This document shows positions 2,610 through 49,180 of a stretch of 64,000 bases of DNA, piece after piece. Source of the stretch: Myceligenerans pegani (lineage in GTDB: Bacteria > Actinomycetota > Actinomycetes > Actinomycetales > Cellulomonadaceae). Both the position numbers and the translations under genes were made by a program. The stretch is taken from assembly GCF_014892515.1 (NCBI RefSeq), contig NZ_JADBGR010000107.1, positions 332,809 through 396,808 on the forward strand. The letters are read 5' to 3'. The notes under the pieces are model-generated. The model did no database searches. It saw only the letters and a list, made by a program, of their open reading frames with translations, and was not told the DNA's origin. Positions within the stretch are counted from its first letter, which is position 1. Every line of letters starts with the position of its first letter.

Positions 2610-3431
2610 TCAGTCCAGCTCGATCGGCAGGGTGGTGGCGACGCACATGTCGCCGCCCGACGCGTACGCGAAGGCGAGGCAGTCGCCGTCCAGCGTGAAG
2701 GTCACCGAGTCGACGGCGCCGTTGCTGTGCGCCGTGAACAGCAGCGCCTGCCACACGTCGCTCGGATGCGCCGCACCGTCGGCGAGCGCATCGTCGAACC
2801 CGGTTGCCACGTCGACCGTCGCCGCACCGGCGACCAGCCGCACCTTCGCGGGCGCCAGGTCGGCGTCCGGCAGCAACGCGGAAAGCGTGTCGTCGACCGC
2901 CGTCGCCAGCGTGTCGGACGGCTCCCCCGCGCTCGGCTCGCCGGTCCGACGCTCCCCCGTCGCCAGGTCACAGCCCAGGTCAGGCGTCGTGGAACCGTCC
3001 GTGGAGCGGGAGCCCTGCGGGATGTCGGGACAGACGGGAGCCGCTCCGGCGACGCCCGGTGCTCCTGGGTTCCCGACTGCCTCGTCGGCCGCCCGGCGCT
3101 CGGCACCCGGCTCCACTTCGAACCCGCCGACGACGATGGTCCAGCCGTCCATGACGTCCGCCGACTCCTCGAGCCACTCGTTCGCGACTCGCGGGTCCTT
3201 GGAGACGTCCACCCGCGCGACCCTGGTGGACTCGGAGAACTCGGTGACGATCGGGCTGGCGAGGAAAGCCAGGCGTGCCTGGTGCTGCGCGTCCGACCCG
3301 CGGTCCTGGCCGACGGCGCCGTGAGCGCCGAGCGGTACGAGCGCGGCACCCATGGCCACCGCGGCGGTCACCACCGCCGCCCATCTACGGCGGTGCGTCG
3401 CCCGACGCACCGCCGGTCTCGATTCGCTCAT
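2610..3431 (-). CDS. Membrane-anchored GerMN-like protein
   Basis: The 273-aa protein has a basic N-terminus and one membrane segment or signal (about residues 20-42). A low-complexity middle follows, rich in Gly, Ser and Pro. The C-terminal 100 residues read like a GerMN domain: VRLVAGAATVDVATGF, then LLFTAHSNGAVDSVTFTLDG. GerMN proteins are extracytoplasmic and often accompany amidases. The ATG at 3431 follows GGAGAGG and overlaps the stop of a 20-codon upstream ORF as ATGA. It is first in an operon with the amidase and the lipoprotein. No catalytic motif is visible. Confidence 0.6.
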   Translation of the reverse strand: MSESRPAVRRATHRRRWAAVVTAAVAMGAALVPLGAHGAVGQDRGSDAQHQARLAFLASPIVTEFSESTRVARVDVSKDPRVANEWLEESADVMDGWTIVVGGFEVEPGAERRAADEAVGNPGAPGVAGAAPVCPDIPQGSRSTDGSTTPDLGCDLATGERRTGEPSAGEPSDTLATAVDDTLSALLPDADLAPAKVRLVAGAATVDVATGFDDALADGAAHPSDVWQALLFTAHSNGAVDSVTFTLDGDCLAFAYASGGDMCVATTLPIELD

Positions 3432-3490
3432 GAGATGCCCTCTCCATCGTTCAGGCGTGATGGACGAGTCAGACGGACATCGGTCGTCAT
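3428..3490 (-). CDS. 20-aa leader peptide
   Basis: A 20-codon ORF starts at the ATG at 3490 (MTTDVRLTRP...) and its TGA overlaps the ATG of the GerMN-like gene as ATGA. Its first six codons match those of the NlpC/P60 gene at 942, and the DNA upstream of both starts is similar. Either this is a real leader that couples translation into the operon, or it is the stub of an N-terminus left by recombination between the two loci. The similar upstream region and the exact 4-nt overlap favour a functional leader. Confidence 0.5.
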   Translation of the reverse strand: MTTDVRLTRPSRLNDGEGIS

Positions 3491-3612
3491 GATGTTGTCC
3501 CTTCGCAGAGGTGGTCGGCCCGAGGCGGAGCGCCTGGGTCCGATCCGAAGGTAGGAGGCGTGCGAGGCGGCGCGACTCCCGCACCATGCCCGTACCGAGG
3601 CCATCGCCCGTA
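3478..3612 (-). repeat. Duplicated upstream module, copy B
   Basis: This is the second copy of the module at 925-1063. On the leftward strand it has GTACGGGC twice, then CCTACCTTCGGA, then the start codon of the leader ORF. The remaining sequence up to 3,788 holds the start region of the rightward MDMPI-family gene, including a possible 21-codon ORF (ATG at 3727) whose stop overlaps the ATG at 3789. I see no other gene there. Confidence 0.6.
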
Positions 3613-3788
3613 CGGGCTCATGCAGCTGAGCACCGGACGGACCCGCCGGCCACGGCTGGCTTCCCCGGACGTTCCACGCGGGCGCCGGGTCTCCATCACG
3701 ATCAGCGCGGTCGCAAGGACCCACCGATGAGTTCGACCGGCGCCCCGCGTCAGCCAGAGCACAACGACTCCTCGGAAGGACAACCGCA

Positions 3789-41269: not shown

Positions 41270-41575
41270 TTACAGGTCGAACGACTTGGTTCCGACGACC
41301 TCGAAATCGGCCCACGTGATCGGGCTCGGCTGCCGTTCGCGGTTGAGATCCTTCGTGGAAGCGATGTCGTGTCGGAACTCCATGAACTCCGAGAGCACCT
41401 GCTGTGCGCGTTCGGCACTGAACCCCTCGGCAGCGGGAGCTGCCTGCTCCCAGTCGGGCCAGCGCAGCTGGATCGCGTCGTCTTCCCAGAAGCAGCTCCC
41501 GCAGATCTCGTACGAGCCGGGTGGCTCGTCAAACACCAAGTGCCCGCAGCACGGGCGCGGGAACCGGTCGCTCAC
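41270..41575 (-). CDS. CPCC-family cysteine-rich protein
   Basis: The 101-aa protein starts at a GTG overlapping the stop of the upstream gene as GTGA. It has the cysteine-rich start PRPCCGHLVF followed by YEICGSCFWEDDAIQ, a pattern of the CPCC family, and a helical C-terminus. The CxxC pair and CC motif probably bind zinc. Such genes are often found near toxin-immunity loci, but the function here is unknown. Confidence 0.75.
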   Translation of the reverse strand: MSDRFPRPCCGHLVFDEPPGSYEICGSCFWEDDAIQLRWPDWEQAAPAAEGFSAERAQQVLSEFMEFRHDIASTKDLNRERQPSPITWADFEVVGTKSFDL

Positions 41576-41913
41576 CGGTACTCCGCGGTGACCTCGATCA
41601 ACCCGACGATGTTCGCGTTCAGCTCCTCCAAGTCCTCGGCCGGGATCCAGTACTCCAGGATCGTCGCGCCACCCACCTGCTGGACCGCATACCCGTCCAG
41701 GAAGCTCTTGGCGACGTCGAACCGCGTCACAAAGCCCGCGCCGGAGTGCTTCACGTTCCAGTCCCGGGCGATCCGGGTGGCGTAGTCCTCGTTCAGCACC
41801 GGATAGAAGATCGGCTGGTCCGCCAGCCGGGGCGGCCACGCCCGCCACCCTGACGCCTCCACCAGCGCCAGCTCCTTCGGCCCGGTCGGCCGCCACAACG
41901 TCACCGTCTCCAT
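41572..41913 (-). CDS. Conserved protein often labelled crystallin J1-like
   Basis: The 113-aa protein starts METVTLWRPTGPKELALVEA and carries GWRAWPPRLADQPIFYPVLN, GFVTRFDV, VGGATILEYWIPAEDL and a closing IEVTAEYR. Close homologues are widespread and often annotated as ADP-ribosylation/crystallin J1 by association, but this is not an ADP-ribosylglycohydrolase fold. The function is unknown. It is coupled to the CPCC gene by a 4-nt overlap. Confidence 0.65.
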   Translation of the reverse strand: METVTLWRPTGPKELALVEASGWRAWPPRLADQPIFYPVLNEDYATRIARDWNVKHSGAGFVTRFDVAKSFLDGYAVQQVGGATILEYWIPAEDLEELNANIVGLIEVTAEYR

Positions 41914-41992
41914 GCGCGCATCCTGACAGTGCGCCTCCCCGTTCGTCACGGCCAATCCGGGCGATCGACACCCTGCTGGGCTACACCGCGGG

Positions 41993-42102
41993 TCAGGTGG
42001 CGGCTGAGGCGACCGAACTCATGTCGGGTACGAGCCAGGTGTGGTCATCACGGACTCGCAGGGTGAACTCATGGATCGTCCGGCCGGTGTGGGTGCGCAG
42101 CG
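41993..42102 (-). pseudogene. 3' fragment of the IS-split histidine phosphatase gene
   Basis: Leftward this encodes RTHTGRTIHEFTLRVRDDH, then TWLVPDMSSVASAAT and a stop. It has no start of its own. Joined to the gene part at 45,924-47,058 by removing the IS and one copy of the 6-bp duplication, it continues the same frame to give an intact 412-codon gene. Confidence 0.8.
42097..42102. repeat. Target site duplication, left
   Basis: GCAGCG directly precedes the left IS end (TGGCTATAAACGT) and recurs directly after the right end at 45924-45929. This is the expected footprint of an IS21-type insertion. Confidence 0.8.
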
Positions 42103-42256
42103 TGGCTATAAACGTCTGATTGGCGAGTGAATGTACGCCGGTCTGGCGAGGGGTCGTGGTTCGGCGAAGGAGATGTACGCGAGAGTCGCGAGGGGTCGCC
42201 TGCGGGTGCACGATGGGTGACGCGGGGGCGTGTGTCGGCGAACGGCGGAATGAGCC

Positions 42257-43935
42257 ATGGCCACGCGTTCTCGGGTGGAGCTGTATGCGGCGATCCGGCG
42301 TGAGTATCGCGCCGGGGAGTCGAAGAGCTCTTTGCAGCGCAAGTATCACGTGGCGTTCGAGACGGTGCAGGCCGCGCTGGACTCGGCCTGGCCCGCGCAG
42401 CGGAAGAAGCCCCGGCCTCGTGAGTCGCGGCTGGACCCGTTCAAGAACCTGGTCGATGAGTGGTTGCGGGCGGACCTGCAGGCACCGCGTAAGCAGCGGC
42501 ATACCGCCCGGCGGGTCTTCGACCGGCTGCGGGACGAGCACGACGCGGACGTGACCTACCGGATCGTTCGGGAGTACGTGGCCCATCGGCGTGGCGAGAT
42601 CAGGGTCGAGGCCGGCCTGGACCCGCCCGAGTCGTTCATCCCGCAGACCCACCTGCCGGGTGTGGAGGCGGAGGTCGACTTCGGCGACGTCACGATCGAG
42701 CTGGCCGGCAAGCCCGTGATCTGCTCGATCTTCTCCTTCCGCCTGTCGTTCTCCGGCAAGGCGGTCCACCGCGTGTTCGCCTCGGCGGGCTCGGAGGCGT
42801 TCCTGGAGGGGCACGTCCATGCCTTCAGGGTGCTGGGCGGGTTGCCGACCGGCAAGGTCCGCTACGACAACCTCAAGGCCGCGGTCGCGCAGGTGCTGGG
42901 GTTCTCCCGGGCGCGCAAGGAGACCGATCGGTGGACAGCCTTCCGGTCCGCCTATGGTCTGGACGCGTTCTGCTGCCAGCCCGGGATCAAGGGCGCGCAC
43001 GAGAAGGGCGGGGTCGAGGGGCAGATCGGCTGGTTCCGCCATAACCACATGGTCCCGGTCCCGCAGGTGGCCACGCTGGGACAGCTGAACGAGATGATCG
43101 ATCAGTGGGACGCCGACGACGAGCGTCGCCGCATCCAGGGCAGGCCCGCACGATCGGGGAGCTGTTCGCCATCTTGCTGGCGCCGCTGCCGGAGGACGAG
43201 TTCGAGACCGGGCGGTGGTTCGACCAGCGGGTGGATCGATACTCCCAGATCACCGTGCGCACCAACCGGTACTCCGTGCCGACCAGGTTCATCGGCCGGA
43301 AGGTCTCGATCCTGCTGCGCGCCTCGGACCTGACCGTCTACGACGGGCACACCGTGATCGCCGAGCACGAACGCCTCTCGGGAAAGGTCGACTCGCGCCT
43401 GGACCTGGACCACTACCTCGAGGCGCTGGTCCGTAAGCCGGGCGCGCTGCCCGGCGCGACGGCGCTGGCGCAGGCCCGGGCGGCCGGGAAGTTCACGCCG
43501 GTGCACGACGCCTGGTGGGACGCGGCGCGCAAGGCGCACGGCGACAAGACGGGGACCCGGGCGCTGATCGACGTGCTGCTGCTGCACCGGCACATGGCCC
43601 ACGAGCACGTCGTCGCGGGGCTGGCCGCGGCGCTGAGCGTCGGGGCGCTGACCGCCGACGCCGTCGCGCTGGAAGCCCGCAAGGCAGCCGACGAGTCGCC
43701 CGCCGGGCAGGCCCGACCGGGGCCGAGCGTCGTCGAGCTGCGCCGGCAGGTGGCGAACGTGACCTCGCTGACCGCCCACCGGCTGCGCACCGGGCAGCTG
43801 CCCGCCGACACCCGCCCGCTGCCGGACCTGACCAAGTACGACGCCCTGCTGCCCAGCCGGCGGCGACCCACCAGCCCCACCGACCAGCAGACCGGCCAGC
43901 AGGCTGGCCGGGAGCAGGCCCGCCCGATGACGTGA
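42257..43935 (+). pseudogene. istA: IS21 transposase istA, frameshifted
   Basis: The first part (42,257 to about 43,140) has the N-terminal helix-turn-helix region (RREYRAGESKSSLQRKYHV) and the DDE catalytic residues in EVDFGDVTIE, VRYDNLKAAV and HEKGGVEGQIGWFR. The C-terminal part continues in another frame (RTIGELFAILLAPLPEDEF to 43,935). The break is near 43,140-43,150. A joined protein would be about 560 aa, normal for actinobacterial IstA. Unless the break is a sequencing error, the full transposase cannot be made. Confidence 0.85.
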
Positions 43936-43942
43936 GGAGACC

Positions 43943-44788
43943 ATGATGAGCACCCAGGCCCCACCCGGGGCCGGACCCCAGAACGAGAAGAAGGCGCCGC
44001 GGCGGCGGGGCATGACCGACCAGGCCGCCGACGCCGCGATCGACCAGGCCTGCCGGATGCTGCGGCTGCCCACGATCCGCACTCACTTCGAGGCGAACGC
44101 CGACGCCGCCGCCCGCGAGCAGATAACCTACCGCGGGTTCCTGGCCGAGCTGCTGCTGGCCGAGTGCGACGACCGCGCCCGCAGACGCTCCGAGCGCCGG
44201 ATCAAGGCCGCCGCCTTCCCCCGGCTCAAGTCCCTGCGCGAGTTCGACTTCGACGCCAACCCGAACGTCGACCCCGCCGTGGTGAACACGCTGGCGACCT
44301 GCGACTGGATCAAGCGCGGCGAACCCCTGTGCCTGATCGGGGACTCCGGGACCGGCAAGTCCCACTTGCTCATCGCGCTGGGGACAGAGGCCGCGATGAA
44401 CGGGTTTCGGGTCAAGTACACCCTGGCCACGCGCCTGGCGAACGAGCTGGCCGAGGCCGCCGACGAGATGACCCTGACCAAGACCATCGCCCGCTACGGA
44501 TGGGTCGACCTGCTCTGTATTGATGAGCTCGGCTATATGGAGCTGGACCGCCGCGGCGCCGAGCTCCTCTTCCAGGTCCTGACCGAACTCGAGGAGAAAG
44601 CCTCGGTCGCGATCGCGTCCAGCGAGTCCTTCGCCGGCTGGACCAAGACCTTCACCGACCCCCGGCTCTGCGCCGCGATCGTGGACCGGCTGACGTTCAA
44701 CGGCGCGATCATCGAGACCGGCACCGACTCCTACCGCCTCGCGCACTCCCGCGACCAGCGCGGCAAGGAGCCCGCCACGGACACCTGA
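43943..44788 (+). CDS. istB: IS21 helper ATPase IstB
   Basis: The 281-aa AAA+ protein has Walker A GDSGTGKSH, Walker B LLCIDELGYM, sensor ASSESFAGWTKTF and the closing GTDSYRLAH. IstB assists IstA in target selection and transposition. GAGGAGA precedes the ATG. It appears intact. It overlaps the following 70-codon ORF as TGATG. Confidence 0.9.
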   Translation: MMSTQAPPGAGPQNEKKAPRRRGMTDQAADAAIDQACRMLRLPTIRTHFEANADAAAREQITYRGFLAELLLAECDDRARRRSERRIKAAAFPRLKSLREFDFDANPNVDPAVVNTLATCDWIKRGEPLCLIGDSGTGKSHLLIALGTEAAMNGFRVKYTLATRLANELAEAADEMTLTKTIARYGWVDLLCIDELGYMELDRRGAELLFQVLTELEEKASVAIASSESFAGWTKTFTDPRLCAAIVDRLTFNGAIIETGTDSYRLAHSRDQRGKEPATDT

Positions 44789-45000
44789 TGGGCTCGCTCT
44801 CGCCGGTGCCCGAGCGCTGGAACGCCGACCAGCGCGCCGCGGCCGATTACTACACCGGCTGGTGGGACGAGGACGGCCGACTCGCGCCCTGGCCCGAGGA
44901 CTTCTTCCTGCCCGACGGCACGATCAACCCGCACTGGCAGCCCAGCCCCGCCGACGCCGTCAGCGACGAAGACCCCGACCCCGACGACCCACCGTTCTGA
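44788..45000 (+). CDS. 70-aa accessory ORF of the IS element
   Basis: This short acidic protein starts MGSLSPVPERWNADQRAA and is coupled to istB by a TGATG overlap. It contains a Trp-rich stretch (YYTGWWDEDGRLAPW) and an acidic Pro-rich tail. No family is recognised. The coupling suggests it is a genuine third IS gene. Confidence 0.6.
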   Translation: MGSLSPVPERWNADQRAAADYYTGWWDEDGRLAPWPEDFFLPDGTINPHWQPSPADAVSDEDPDPDDPPF

Positions 45001-45088
45001 CCTCTCCCGGAAGCCGCAGGAAGAGGGATTCCGCCGCTTCCTGCCAGCCCGTGACGACACGGACGGAGTCCAGGCTGGCCGCAGGCCA

Positions 45089-45165
45089 CCCGCAGGGGCC
45101 TAAGGGCCTTGACGCCGTCCGGGACGGAACCGTCATCGACCCACCACGGCGGAATCCCGGACCCC
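45089..45165 (+). repeat. 77-bp IS-end repeat, copy 1
   Basis: This 77-bp block matches 45745-45821 with 4 mismatches. The following 100 bp, ending at a CA at 45264-45265, is a diverged version of the IS right end. It marks an internal right end. Confidence 0.8.
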
Positions 45166-45277
45166 AAGACCGCTCCTGGAACTCAGCTCCACGATCGGCC
45201 GCCAGGACCTGCTCACCGCTCCTCAAACAGGGCTCCAAACGTTCCCCGTTCTGACCTCCGTAGCAAGGGGTACCTAC

Positions 45278-45673
45278 TCAAGCGACGCAGAACTCGTTGC
45301 CCTCGGGGTCGAGCATGACGACGTGGCCCAGAACTGAACCCCGTTCGTCGGTGTAATCCTCCTCGCGCACCGTGGTCGCCCCCGCGCCCTCGAGCTCGGC
45401 GACCTTCGCACGGATCAGGTCGGCCCGCTGAAGCCAGTCCCACGGCGGTTCGCCGGCAACACGGATGTCGATGTGAAAGCGGTTCTTGGACGTCTTCGGC
45501 TCCGGAACTCGCAAGAAGCCGATCGCCGGGCCGACTCCATCCGGATCGACCAACGAGGCGCCATCGGGATCGTCGTAGCCCGGCTCTGGGACATACCCCA
45601 GCGCCAGCGCCCAGAACTCAGCAAGCCGTTGTGGGTCGCCAGCATCCGCCCCAATGGTCCAGTGCACAGCCAT
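45278..45673 (-). CDS. VOC-family protein carried inside the IS element
   Basis: The 131-aa protein has the VOC pattern of one domain with paired beta-alpha modules: HWTIGADAGDPQRLAEFW at the start, FHIDIRV in the middle and GHVVMLDPEGNEFCVA at the end. Metal-binding positions of glyoxalases could be the His in HWTI, the His of FHIDI and the Glu of GNEF. It could be a resistance or detoxification enzyme; the substrate is unknown. TACGAT is 6 nt before the ATG, so it has its own leaderless promoter. It starts 12 nt inside the first IS right end and points against istAB. Confidence 0.85.
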   Translation of the reverse strand: MAVHWTIGADAGDPQRLAEFWALALGYVPEPGYDDPDGASLVDPDGVGPAIGFLRVPEPKTSKNRFHIDIRVAGEPPWDWLQRADLIRAKVAELEGAGATTVREEDYTDERGSVLGHVVMLDPEGNEFCVA

Positions 45674-45744
45674 CACCCGATCGTAGGCCAGGCCTTCTCT
45701 GAATCGCTGCTGACTCACCTACGCCCGGCGCTGGCCTCAGGCTG

Positions 45745-45821
45745 CCCGCAGGGGCCGAAGGGCCTTGACGCCGTCCGGGACGGAACCATCATCGGCCTAC
45801 CACGGCGGAATCCCGGACCCC
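45745..45821 (+). repeat. 77-bp IS-end repeat, copy 2
   Basis: This is the second copy of the 45089-45165 block, followed by the terminal right end (to 45923). The two copies flank the VOC cargo gene. Confidence 0.8.
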
Positions 45822-45923
45822 CGCGGACCCCTCGTGAAACTCACGTACATCCAGCACCGTCCACCGCCCCAACCACTCGTCAAACAGCCGTACATTCACT
45901 CCTCGTTCTCACGTTCATAGCCA

Positions 45924-45929
45924 GCAGCG
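45924..45929. repeat. Target site duplication, right
   Basis: This is the GCAGCG copy directly after the right IS end, matching 42097-42102. Confidence 0.8.
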
Positions 45930-47058
45930 TCAGGCTGGTGAGCGCGGTGGGGTCGACCGGGGTCCACGTCTCGGGGGTATCAGCCAGGTCTGCGCGCTCG
46001 ACCGGTACAGCACGCGCTGCGGCGATCGCGCCCGCAAGGAGATGGGAGCCCTCGACGTCCAGCCGGCCGAACAGGCCGCCAGAGGGTGCGATCCCGGTCA
46101 CGATGAACCGGGCCACTGGCTGGCCGTTGTCGTGGAGTGTCCACTCGTTCACAACTGGTTCGCGGGTCTCACGCGTCCCCAGCCCTTCACGCAGTGCCTC
46201 GACCGTCGCCTCCACGCCCTGGTACTGCGGCCAGGGGAAGTACTCCCCCCATGCTCCGAACACCTGGCCATCGGCCGGGACCAAGGCCGCGAACCGGCCA
46301 CCCGGCATAGAGCTGGCCATCGCGACGAGGCGAGCCTCAGGATCCCGGATCGGCCTCGTCCGCAGGTGCAGGACCGAATGGCTGAACACCGGGAACAACC
46401 CACCCACCAGCAGGTCCTCCCGCAACCGTGCCACGAGTTCGACAGCCCACATCTCATGGCAGCGCGCGGCCACGGCGAGCCGGTCCCACAGGTGCTCGCG
46501 CCACACCTCCGCCGGAGCATCCCGATCCGGTTGGAGCAGTGTGGTCTTCTCCACGACGATCGTGTCCGGCATCGTCATGGCCTGCCACCGCTCCAGATCC
46601 GGCTCGGTGCCCGTGAGCTCGGCGGCCAGGAGCGTCCAGGCGGTCCCATGACCGACCAGGACCACATCCCTGCCCGAGTGCTCCGCCATGATCCGTCCCA
46701 CGGCCGCCACCACCCGCGACCGTGTCTGCGCGATCGACTCCCACCCTGACCGGGCCACCGGATACGGTTCCGCGAAGGTATGCCGGACGACGTCGGTGAA
46801 GTCCGGCAGCCAGGTCGTCCCGCCGCGGTCGTGTTCCCGCAGGTCTGCCACGACCGGCACCTCGCGACCTGCGAGCAGGAACGCGGTACGGGCTGCCTTC
46901 GGCTCGGGCGAGGCGAACCAGACCGCGTCCTGCGGCCACGGCGCCCGCGCCGCGAGATCCATCACCTCGCGCTCGTGGTCGGGATCCAGGAGCCACGTCG
47001 AGGCCGGAACCGCCGGGTCAAGGAGCGGCCGCCCGTGACGGACCAGGTAAAGAACCAC
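45924..47058 (-). pseudogene. Histidine-phosphatase-family gene split by the IS
   Basis: The N-terminal part is a histidine phosphatase: LVRHGRP at the start and VLVGHGTAW near residue 135. A second domain of unknown type follows (about 180-370, containing SSMPGGRFAALVPADGQVFGAWGEYFPWPQYQG). The frame runs into the IS and stops at 45,880 (total 392 codons with 12 IS-derived). Removing the IS restores a 412-codon ORF ending at 41,993. The GTG at 47058 lies 7 nt after TAGGCT on the leftward strand. The truncated protein lacks 35 native residues and may still be functional. Confidence 0.8.
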
Positions 47059-47079
47059 CGGCGCCAGCCTAGAACGCCC

Positions 47080-47559
47080 TCAGCAGGTCGAATGAACCAG
47101 CGCGGCGACCATGCAGGTCGCGGCAAGCTCGTTGTAGAGGGCGACGGCATCCTCGGTGGGCGCCACGTGCACCTCCATGCCGAGCGACTCCGCATAGCGG
47201 ACGGAGTCCACGCCGACTCCCAGGCGTGACTCCATGCCTCGGGACAGAACGAGCACCTCGATGCGGGCGAGACCCGATTCGGAACTGGTCGCGGCGACCG
47301 CCTGGTCGACGTCGGACCGCTGGATACCCGGGCAGTGTCGTGTGCCCGTCACTGTCCAGTCCCACACGACGGCACCACCTGGATACAGGATGACGTCCTT
47401 GAACCGCCCTACGCCCTGGACATCGACCACTCCCCAAGCCAGGTGCGTGACTTTCGGCGAAGGCTGGCCGCTCGTGTTGCGGTCGTTCATGACAACTCGA
47501 TGACCAAGCACGTCGTCGGCATCCCAGCGGGCTTCAAAAGGCACGAGCATGTCCGTCAC
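47080..47559 (-). CDS. Mth938-like domain protein
   Basis: The 159-aa protein has the DUF498/Mth938 pattern: HLAWGVVDV, RFKDVILYPGGAVVWDW, TGTRHCPGIQ, EVLVLSRGM, and a C-terminal YNELAATCMVAALVHSTC. The family fold is known, but not the activity. The GTG at 47559 is chosen because TACCCT lies 6 nt upstream with no Shine-Dalgarno. It ends 21 nt before the histidine phosphatase start and diverges from the AbiEii-type gene. Confidence 0.75.
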   Translation of the reverse strand: MTDMLVPFEARWDADDVLGHRVVMNDRNTSGQPSPKVTHLAWGVVDVQGVGRFKDVILYPGGAVVWDWTVTGTRHCPGIQRSDVDQAVAATSSESGLARIEVLVLSRGMESRLGVGVDSVRYAESLGMEVHVAPTEDAVALYNELAATCMVAALVHSTC

Positions 47560-47586
47560 ACGCGGAGGGTACCCGACCCGGTGTGG

Positions 47587-47592
47587 CAGGAT
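47587..47592 (+). promoter_or_regulatory. -10 box for leaderless nucleotidyltransferase gene
   Basis: CAGGAT lies 7 nt before the GTG at 47600. It shares a 40-bp divergent gap with the TACCCT box of the Mth938-like gene. Confidence 0.45.
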
Positions 47593-47599
47593 CGCGGGC

Positions 47600-49180
47600 G
47601 TGTATGAGGGCGCGCTGGAGATCCATCTGACCGTTGATTCGTGGGCCGGTGATCGTCTGGACGGGTTCGCGGGTGAGCGTGGGATCAAGGTGAGCCGGAT
47701 CGAGCTGGATCACGGCAAGTTCCGCTCCCAGCCGATGTTGACGGTCGAGTTGACGGGGTCGCTGGAGGACGCCGAGCAGCGCGTTGCGCAGCTGCGTCGG
47801 GAACTGTCCGCTGCACGGCTGCAGGCGGTGCGGGTCAAGGTGGAGACCGCGCCGTGGAACCGCGACGTGCCGGTCACCGACACACAGGCGCGCGAGGACC
47901 TGTACTTCGAGCACCACGTCAAGGTCCGCCTCCCAGCCGGAGACGTCGCACGCCTCCTGGAGATCACGGCGCTGGCTCGAGAGCACGATGCACGCGTCTC
48001 TCGCAACGCGCGGCGCGCGCTGGGGGACGGGTGGGAGGAGCGGTTCGTGACGCAGCGGTGCTTCGGCGTGGGGCGCCAGACGTCACGCCCGAGGCTGGAC
48101 GCGTTGGTTTCAGCGCTCGGCGAGGGCGGGTTCGAGGTGCTGGAGGTCGAGGAGGAGTACGTCGTGGTCGACGACAACCTCGGCTTGGATGCTGGCTGGA
48201 TGGACCGGCCGGCGAAGAACGCCGGCCCGAGCTACAGCGACCTGATCGACGCGCGCGTCGCACAGCAGCTGTCATACCAGCGCGACGGATTCCCGGACAC
48301 GTTCATGCCGCTGGTGCCCTCGGCCGGGGTGAGGCAGCACGCCGTGTTCGAACCGGCCTTGAAGCAGTTCACCAACGCCTTCAAGACAGGGCAACCCGCC
48401 TTCGCTGACCCGCTCCGCGCCGAGCAGTGGGCCCAGGCCCGCGCGGCCGTCCGGAACCATGTGCTCGACGTCATCGCCCGCTCGCCGTGGGCCTCGAACC
48501 TGGTCCTGCGGGGCAGCGCGACACTGCACGCCTGGCTGGGAGACACGGCGCGCGAGCCCGGTGACCTCGACTTCGTGGTCACGCCGCACACGACCGGCGC
48601 GAACAGCCCACAGACATTGGAGATGCTGGACGGCCTGCGGGCCGCCCTGGCTGCCGACCCGGGCCCAGGCGTGCGCGTGGCCGATGCGACCGGTGAGGAC
48701 ATCTGGACCTACGAGCGCGCCGAAGGACGCCGCCTCGTGATCCCCTACGACATGACGACCGGCGGCGAATGGCCGGCCACGACCATCCAGCTGGACTTCG
48801 CCTTCCAGGAACCCCTCATCGATGACCCGGTATCGGTGTCGTTAACACCGTCCGGACCGCCGATGCTGGCCGCTTCTGCCGAGCTCCAGCTCGCCTGGAA
48901 GATCCAATGGCTGGCCACCGACATGTGGCCCCAGGGCAAGGACCTGTACGACGCCGTCCGGCTCACCGAGGTCGCCCACCTGCGCTGGTCACTGCTCCGG
49001 CAGGTCCTGGACGCCGCCGACGACGCTGGGGCTGCCGGCTTCGACGCCGCCGACGCCCTGGGGCTCGAGGTGGACTGGGACAACTTCCTGGCCGACCACC
49101 CCTGGATCAACGGAGACCAACGCGAGTGGGTCGAACGACTCGCCACCTACCTCGCCCGCATCCAGAACGACGACCGATAG
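47600..49180 (+). CDS. AbiEii/AbiGii-type nucleotidyltransferase with extra N-terminal domain
   Basis: The 526-aa protein has a C-terminal nucleotidyltransferase of the AbiEii type with LRGSATLHAWL followed by GDLDFVV (about residues 303-327), a further Asp in QLDFAF (about 398) and a GKDLYDAVRL segment (about 450). The first 200 residues form a separate domain with YFEHHVKVRL, RNARRALGDGWEERFVTQR and VEEEYVVVDDN. AbiEii toxins modify NTP/RNA in abortive infection, but no AbiEi antitoxin gene is adjacent. It is either an orphan toxin-like enzyme or a nucleotidyltransferase with another role. Confidence 0.75.
   Translation: MYEGALEIHLTVDSWAGDRLDGFAGERGIKVSRIELDHGKFRSQPMLTVELTGSLEDAEQRVAQLRRELSAARLQAVRVKVETAPWNRDVPVTDTQAREDLYFEHHVKVRLPAGDVARLLEITALAREHDARVSRNARRALGDGWEERFVTQRCFGVGRQTSRPRLDALVSALGEGGFEVLEVEEEYVVVDDNLGLDAGWMDRPAKNAGPSYSDLIDARVAQQLSYQRDGFPDTFMPLVPSAGVRQHAVFEPALKQFTNAFKTGQPAFADPLRAEQWAQARAAVRNHVLDVIARSPWASNLVLRGSATLHAWLGDTAREPGDLDFVVTPHTTGANSPQTLEMLDGLRAALAADPGPGVRVADATGEDIWTYERAEGRRLVIPYDMTTGGEWPATTIQLDFAFQEPLIDDPVSVSLTPSGPPMLAASAELQLAWKIQWLATDMWPQGKDLYDAVRLTEVAHLRWSLLRQVLDAADDAGAAGFDAADALGLEVDWDNFLADHPWINGDQREWVERLATYLARIQNDDR

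Follow-up and report, generated by a model that had tools for sequence, protein, structure and literature searches.

The IS21 family of insertion sequences (IS), with IS21 and IS5376 as described members, couples a transposase with a DDE catalytic centre (IstA) to an AAA+ helper ATPase (IstB), and its elements leave a short duplication of their target. Repeated sub-units and a terminal CA are expected at the ends of IS21-family elements, and in the case of IS5376 the 3' terminal CA is positioned at the catalytic site and an end requires two complete repeats (PMC10122671). Three IS21 elements of Paracoccus measure 2.47-2.50 kb and have duplications of 7-8 bp (PMC3281130), and the C-terminal beta-barrel of IstA is known to dock on IstB (PMC11208146). 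Insertion sequences holding a transposition-unrelated gene inside their ends are also a known kind, the transporter IS or tIS (PMC9330008, PMC3129680). Here we describe a 3,821-bp IS21-family element with such a passenger gene, located in a 64,000-nucleotide stretch of the genome of Myceligenerans pegani (contig NZ_JADBGR010000107.1, positions 332,809 to 396,808; hereafter the window, to which all positions refer). A DDE transposase and an AAA+ regulator, with cargo beside the transposition genes, are likewise characteristic of Tn7-like transposons. The transposition genes identified in the window element are istA and istB, in an analysis that made no search for Tn7-type target selectors.

The new element shares with IS21 and IS5376 a DDE istA, an adjoining AAA+ istB, ends of repeated sub-units with a terminal CA, and a short duplication, here of 6 bp. 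Unlike in those elements, a passenger gene separates istB from the right end, and the total length is 3.8 kb. This gene, a VOC-family gene unrelated to transposition, sits within the duplicated boundaries as in a tIS, from which the element differs in that cargo and right end apparently have been swapped as a block. In the literature available to us we found neither an IS21 group with a cargo slot nor an IS21-family tIS; most subscription papers, ISfinder and TnPedia lay outside that search, so that a prior description is possible. The actinobacterial group of cargo-carrying IS21 elements presented below is apparently undescribed.

An insertion into a histidine phosphatase gene

The locus arose through the ordinary insertion of a cargo-carrying (transporter) IS21-family element into a Myceligenerans histidine phosphatase gene, with duplication of the hexamer GCAGCG. 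A sequence-only reading of the window had already proposed an IS21 insertion that can be excised on paper, and its reconstruction is reproduced here: the ends, TGGCTATAAACGT at 42,103 and ACGTTCATAGCCA up to 45,923, are both exact, GCAGCG occurs exactly at 42,097-42,102 and 45,924-45,929, and removal of the element with one GCAGCG fuses the flanking frames into 1,239 nt, or 413 codons with the stop, across the joint TALTSLTL-RTHTGRTIHEF. The comparison within the genus goes further. In M. salitolerans (NZ_JAFMPK010000045.1, locus L021; L, G and C numbers are our handles for loci, genomes and contigs) the empty site is occupied by one uninterrupted open reading frame (ORF) of 412 aa, with 89% protein identity to the split phosphatase. 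The left flank with GCAGCG and GCAGCG with the right flank, 42 nt each, match this site at 42/42 positions in both cases and overlap on it by exactly six bases, GCAGCG, and the joined flanks align with it over 1,910 bp at 93.4% identity. This empty site bears out both the exact integration point and the claim that the insertion is younger than the gene. Moreover, the reading had staked its case on homologues that do not stop before the junction, and the M. salitolerans protein crosses the junction and ends at the same stop. A second same-genus genome (G001, locus L010) gives identical alignment figures and is probably the same genome. Outside the genus the junction-spanning homology is thinner, as homologues in other genera align to the split protein only over residues 1 to ~177 or less, which indicates that the C-terminal half is poorly conserved; one separate ORF in another genus resembles that half (residues 195-402) at 26%. 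The same reading overlooked the VOC passenger, an inner right end, a 92-nt repeat, the broken istA and the slots of relatives with other genes, all of which are treated below. The features of the element and its insertion site are as follows.

41,993-42,096, minus strand: 3' remainder of the split histidine phosphatase gene, including the stop
42,097-42,102: left copy of the 6-bp target duplication GCAGCG (single copy at the M. salitolerans empty site)
42,103-45,923, plus strand: IS21-family element with passenger gene, 3,821 bp
42,103-42,198, plus strand: left end, with repeated sub-units at 42,131-42,156 and 42,173-42,198 (inverted repeats I1 and I3, direct repeat D6)
42,257-43,333, plus strand: first part of istA, N-terminal and DDE catalytic region (NF033546, E 1.7e-55)
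43,105-43,935, plus strand: second part of istA in another frame, Mu-type C-terminal domain (PF22483, E 9.2e-20)
43,943-44,788, plus strand: istB, AAA+ helper ATPase, intact (PF01695, E 4e-62; NF038214)
44,788-45,000, plus strand: 70-aa ORF overlapping the istB stop (TGATG), kept in the relative L078
45,074-45,165, plus strand: first copy of the 92-nt direct repeat (D1, 92%), part of the inner right end
45,166-45,266, plus strand: inner degenerate right end (ending GTAGCAA, GTAGCCA in L078)
45,278-45,673, minus strand: passenger gene, VOC / Glyoxalase_6, 131 aa (PF18029, E 1.5e-24)
45,730-45,821, plus strand: second copy of the 92-nt direct repeat (D1), part of the outer right end
45,822-45,923, plus strand: outer right end, used in this insertion (I1, I3)
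45,924-45,929: right copy of the target duplication GCAGCG (single copy at the M. salitolerans empty site)
45,924-47,058, minus strand: codons 1-378 of the split histidine phosphatase gene (PF00300, E 7.5e-14)

The ends of the element read TGGCT...AGCCA, in terminal arms of 57 nt with 75% complementarity. Its istA passes the NF033546 cut-off (188.7 vs 160 bits) and aligns with the IS5376 IstA structures 8q4d and 8b4h of the Protein Data Bank, and istB, directly downstream, lies above the NF038214 cut-off (245.2 vs 200 bits). A close look at the right side reveals two ends. The copies of the 92-nt direct repeat, 92% identical, flank the VOC gene, with the inner right end behind the first copy, and both the 6-bp duplication and the matching end pair belong to the outer right end, with which the left end pairs at an alignment score of 96, compared with 39 for the inner one. 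The inner end terminates in GTAGCAA and its L078 counterpart in GTAGCCA; because it has lost the terminal CA, and given the requirements described for IS5376 (PMC10122671), the inner right end is probably dead. In the genome that also holds L078, locus L079 (G565:C13, ~3,363-3,719) shows two right-end-like pieces facing each other ~60 bp apart, similar to a relict or a miniature inverted-repeat transposable element, with no istA or istB within the 7 kb fetched.

Between istB and the inner right end there is the 70-aa ORF, with 62 of its 70 residues kept in L078. Substitutions by codon position number [6,3,10], from two sequences only and too few to call it a gene, and neither the plasmids nor NCBIfam gave a match; it may represent an accessory gene or a small, earlier cargo. 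One full copy of the element was found in the host draft genome (5.87 Mb, 111 contigs), which also contains, at L118 (G000:C52:20,500-25,000), an istA fragment of a different IS21 element with 51-61% protein identity.

With regard to the host gene, 378 of the 412 codons are retained and 34 lost. The phosphatase domain (residues 3-156) lies wholly upstream of the break and the truncated frame continues for 14 codons into the element (ORF 45,880-47,058), so that being split need not mean that the gene is inactive. When 8 kb of the window were compared with 9.1 kb of L021, similarity was confined (within window 41,452-47,188) to ~1.9 kb around the split gene, which places it in a small conserved island. 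Close by, the C-terminal part of a 543-aa ORF (47,549-49,180) matches the AbiEii nucleotidyltransferase (PF08843).

A cargo slot behind istB

The window element consists of a core (left end, istA and istB) followed by a cargo slot behind istB that the right end closes. In relatives, found in plasmids of Streptomyces and elsewhere among actinobacterial genomes, this slot contains other genes, which lie inside the transposing unit. Evidence comes from 47 IS21 loci, examined in three rounds (25, 8 and 14) for TGGCT/AGCCA ends and target duplications. Only ends anchored on these motifs were kept, as an anchor-free search was noisy, with null scores up to 27.5. Paired ends were called from at least 12 of 24 end bases and duplications from at least 6 bp, and mismatched left/right pairings among the same 47 loci served as the null. 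Paired ends with a duplication of 6-9 bp were found in 20 of the 47 true pairings and in 8 of the 2,162 mismatched ones; an earlier null on 25 loci, with at least 5 bp and 13/24 end bases, gave 1/600. The slot is filled in 18 of these 20 loci, that is, in the window element and 17 relatives, and empty in L184 (107 bp) and L177 (115 bp). Eight further loci, six of them on plasmids, have paired ends and no duplication: six are filled (L110, L124, L129, L133, L141, L174), L128 is empty (156 bp), and L078 has a 480-bp slot with the 70-aa ORF only. The slots of L111, with an apparently truncated left end, and of L134, with its left end in two parts, are filled too, and L112-L114 appear empty, judged from the position of the right end alone. 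With the copies L122/L141 and L173/L134 each counted as one element, the filled elements amount to 24. Where both ends were found, filled slots measure 519-3,091 bp and empty ones 107-156 bp. The cargo counts leave aside the 14 loci without resolvable ends, namely L109, L121 (which repeats the L108 insertion and is truncated next to an IS3), L131, L136, L084, L116, L117, L175 and L178-L183, and the end test covers neither L115 (cut by a contig end, no istA) nor the fragment L118, which has no istB.

In the majority of the 25 Streptomyces plasmid loci retrieved, istB is closely followed by a gene on the other strand. In a sample composed of the window element and 18 different plasmid elements, with L134 and the non-plasmid genomes left out, the first cargo gene is antisense in 17 of 19 cases and sense in two (L124, L125; two-sided binomial 0.0007); the best cargo ORF of L172 is also in sense. 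The cargo itself is diverse. According to annotation and Pfam it comprises a methyltransferase (L108), DUF6518 (L122/L141), STAS and DUF6221 (L123), HAD-type proteins (L126, L127, L129), a YdjC-like protein (L133), a mycothiol-S-transferase/DinB protein (L140), DUF4440 (L111) and a MarR regulator (L134), whereas the remaining cargo shows weak or no family match; judged by eye, L176 contains a short-chain dehydrogenase and a LuxR-type regulator, and L172 and L174 encode SMI1-like proteins. Other mobile elements are nested in some loci: ISL3 transposase genes lie within the L125 slot and within the divided left end of L134, and the right end of L135 contains an IS5-family gene.

Elements found at more than one site indicate where the transposing unit stops. 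Two copies on one S. canus plasmid (L122/L141) have exactly 3,515 bp in common, from TGGCT to AGCCA and including DUF6518, and share nothing outside them. In the same way, L134, from a plasmid of S. globisporus, agrees with L173 (G827) at 99.97% over 3,813 bp up to the right end, with MarR and SgcJ/EcaC genes whose proteins are both 100% identical. Moreover, the L108 element, methyltransferase included, is missing from the homologous plasmid L119, which keeps the empty site, and twelve more records (H83, H85-H95) follow the same two-piece pattern as L119 in the match listing. By sequence comparison, cargo travels with its element in L122/L141 and L173/L134, and the empty site of L119 adds a third, independent case. 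The window element, found in one copy, offers no such pair of its own.

Probable exchange of blocks and a proposed route for the entry of cargo

How different genes came to occupy the same slot is suggested by comparisons between relatives. In 11 pairs with cores at least 90% identical, left ends average 93.8% identity and right ends 74.3%, random 90-mers giving 48.7%, and in 10 of the 11 the right end falls more than 8 points below the left. Elements with cores 91-95% identical hold unrelated cargo, and, the end itself excepted, the slots of the 11 pairs have no nucleotide matches at E 1e-4. The exception is L122/L123: their 138-bp right end is shared at 93%, and the cargo inside differs. The reverse arrangement is seen in L130/L138, where cores are 78% identical, left ends dissimilar, and cargo plus right end 88% identical over 524 bp. 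The step in identity lies inside istB in L130/L138 and in the comparison of the window with L078, and at the istB stop in the three close-core pairs profiled. These patterns suggest that the core and the block of cargo plus right end recombine around istB. A mosaic origin argued from fourfold sites alone was considered and found weak, istB being also more conserved in comparison with G262; the argument is borne by the patterns of ends and slots.

We propose that cargo is captured when the left end of an element is paired with an additional right end situated beyond a neighbouring gene, after which the old right end would decay, and that recombination within istB or immediately behind it would later swap blocks of cargo and right end from one element to another. 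The window copy, which still has its decayed inner right end, would be a snapshot of the capture step. The most serious competitor of this scheme, to which we would give roughly one chance in three, holds that homologous recombination or gene conversion among elements resident together suffices to bring in cargo, with no second right end in use. Cores 92-94% identical that switch to unrelated cargo at the istB stop are what such recombination would leave, and the right end common to L122 and L123 fits it as well. Nevertheless, recombination alone explains reshuffling and not the first entry of a host gene, the right end differs together with the cargo in 10 of the 11 close pairs, and the cargo of the window element is enclosed by two right ends. 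Capture at a second right end, followed by block exchange, is the route we infer.

Far less probable is that a cargo-free IS21 element was inserted and that the VOC gene pre-existed there or arrived later within the element by an unrelated event. Elements without cargo do exist (L177, L184, L128), and one that ends at the inner right end is L078 itself, from another genus of the same family: it is 83% identical to the window element over 42,202-45,268, from which it differs in its length (3,156 bp), an intact single-frame istA, a different left end, the lack of a VOC gene and the lack of a visible duplication. The two share ~60% identity at the left end; along istA the figure is 75-84%, and it is 86-96% in the stretch that begins ~110 bp inside istB and closes with the inner right end. 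However, it is the outer right end that takes part in the duplication and the matching end pair, a VOC gene is absent from the M. salitolerans site, and relatives hold different genes in the same slot. The VOC gene also has DNA matches in two other genera, in G559 (90%), G562 (92%, partial) and G023 (93%), no istA or istB being found within the stretches fetched. The match in G023 extends into portions of both the inner right end and the second repeat, at 91% over window 45,214-45,772, which means that other genomes share the arrangement, and we read that stretch as a decayed relict of the inner-end/VOC/repeat unit. No clean empty site for the unit was found in the genus of G023, where 17 of 18 genomes matched; in 15 of the 17 the match covers only the query from 1 to 474-608, which is the gene beside the VOC unit (nrdB, by eye). 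VOC substitutions by codon position, [2,4,21] against G023 and [5,3,32] against G559, fall mostly on the third, indicating a protein under purifying selection. A search of plasmids with the VOC protein (56 records, best places all below 60% identity) was not informative. At L115 (G200:C10), near a contig end, a VOC homologue with 35% identity follows istB directly and in the same orientation, and may have been captured independently.

It is slightly less credible still that the genes behind istB of the relatives merely flank them and that right ends were called by chance. The eight loci with paired ends and no duplication, the 14 of 47 without resolvable ends and the few mismatched pairings that pass would be in keeping with it, but true pairings pass far more often than mismatched ones (the 20 and 8 given above), filled and empty slots do not overlap in size, copies of one element inserted at different sites end on an identical base past the cargo, and there is one empty site.

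The window copy has its own defect, in that istA lies in two frames where an active transposon would have an intact transposase. Its reading frame is lost near 43,100-43,200, at a point where a net 10 nt fewer are present than in L078. Because this frameshift separates the catalytic core from the C-terminal part that engages IstB, the copy is probably no longer autonomous, and probably immobile unless another element helps. A programmed frameshift in an active element, for which one could invoke that both istA parts are still recognisable, is hardly believable in view of the 10 missing nucleotides and of L078 and L084, which encode both parts in a single frame.

Several observations weigh against the view that this is a transporter IS21 element whose cargo was captured and exchanged. 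Two right ends are seen in this element only, so the capture route rests on one case; transposition itself was never observed, and with its broken istA the window copy could hardly show activity. The 14 loci without resolvable ends lend no support to cargo, two of the 20 with duplications (L132, L172) match at only 12/24 end bases, and in 5 of the 18 filled slots (L138, L172, L173, L176, L185) the cargo is an unannotated ORF, as it is in L174; the ORF of L138 is homologous to the annotated cargo of L130. The higher identity of istB is partly ordinary, as the comparison with G262 indicates. Finally, other copies of the left end of the 42,103 type were absent from the plasmids, and the only other matches in 221 family genomes were the right end of the element itself and short pieces, in two of the genomes; the outer right end had no plasmid match either. 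Even so, we hold it very probable that a transporter IS21 insertion, with its cargo captured and its blocks exchanged in the way proposed, is the best explanation of the locus as a whole.

A possible gene shuttle in actinobacteria

Descriptions of IS21 assign both of its genes to transposition. The present data raise a broader idea, to which we give an even chance: that a widespread actinobacterial IS21 group acts as a gene shuttle, with a fixed core, exchangeable blocks of cargo and right end traded at istB, and a transposase that captures host genes by pairing its left end with the right ends of other elements, the window element being an intermediate with the old and the new right end side by side in one copy. 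If a whole branch of the family does carry and exchange host genes, Streptomyces and its relatives would have a small and simple vehicle of gene transfer, and one easily overlooked because its cargo is annotated as an unrelated neighbour. Moreover, the use of a second right end would offer a concrete and testable route from an insertion sequence to a transposon.

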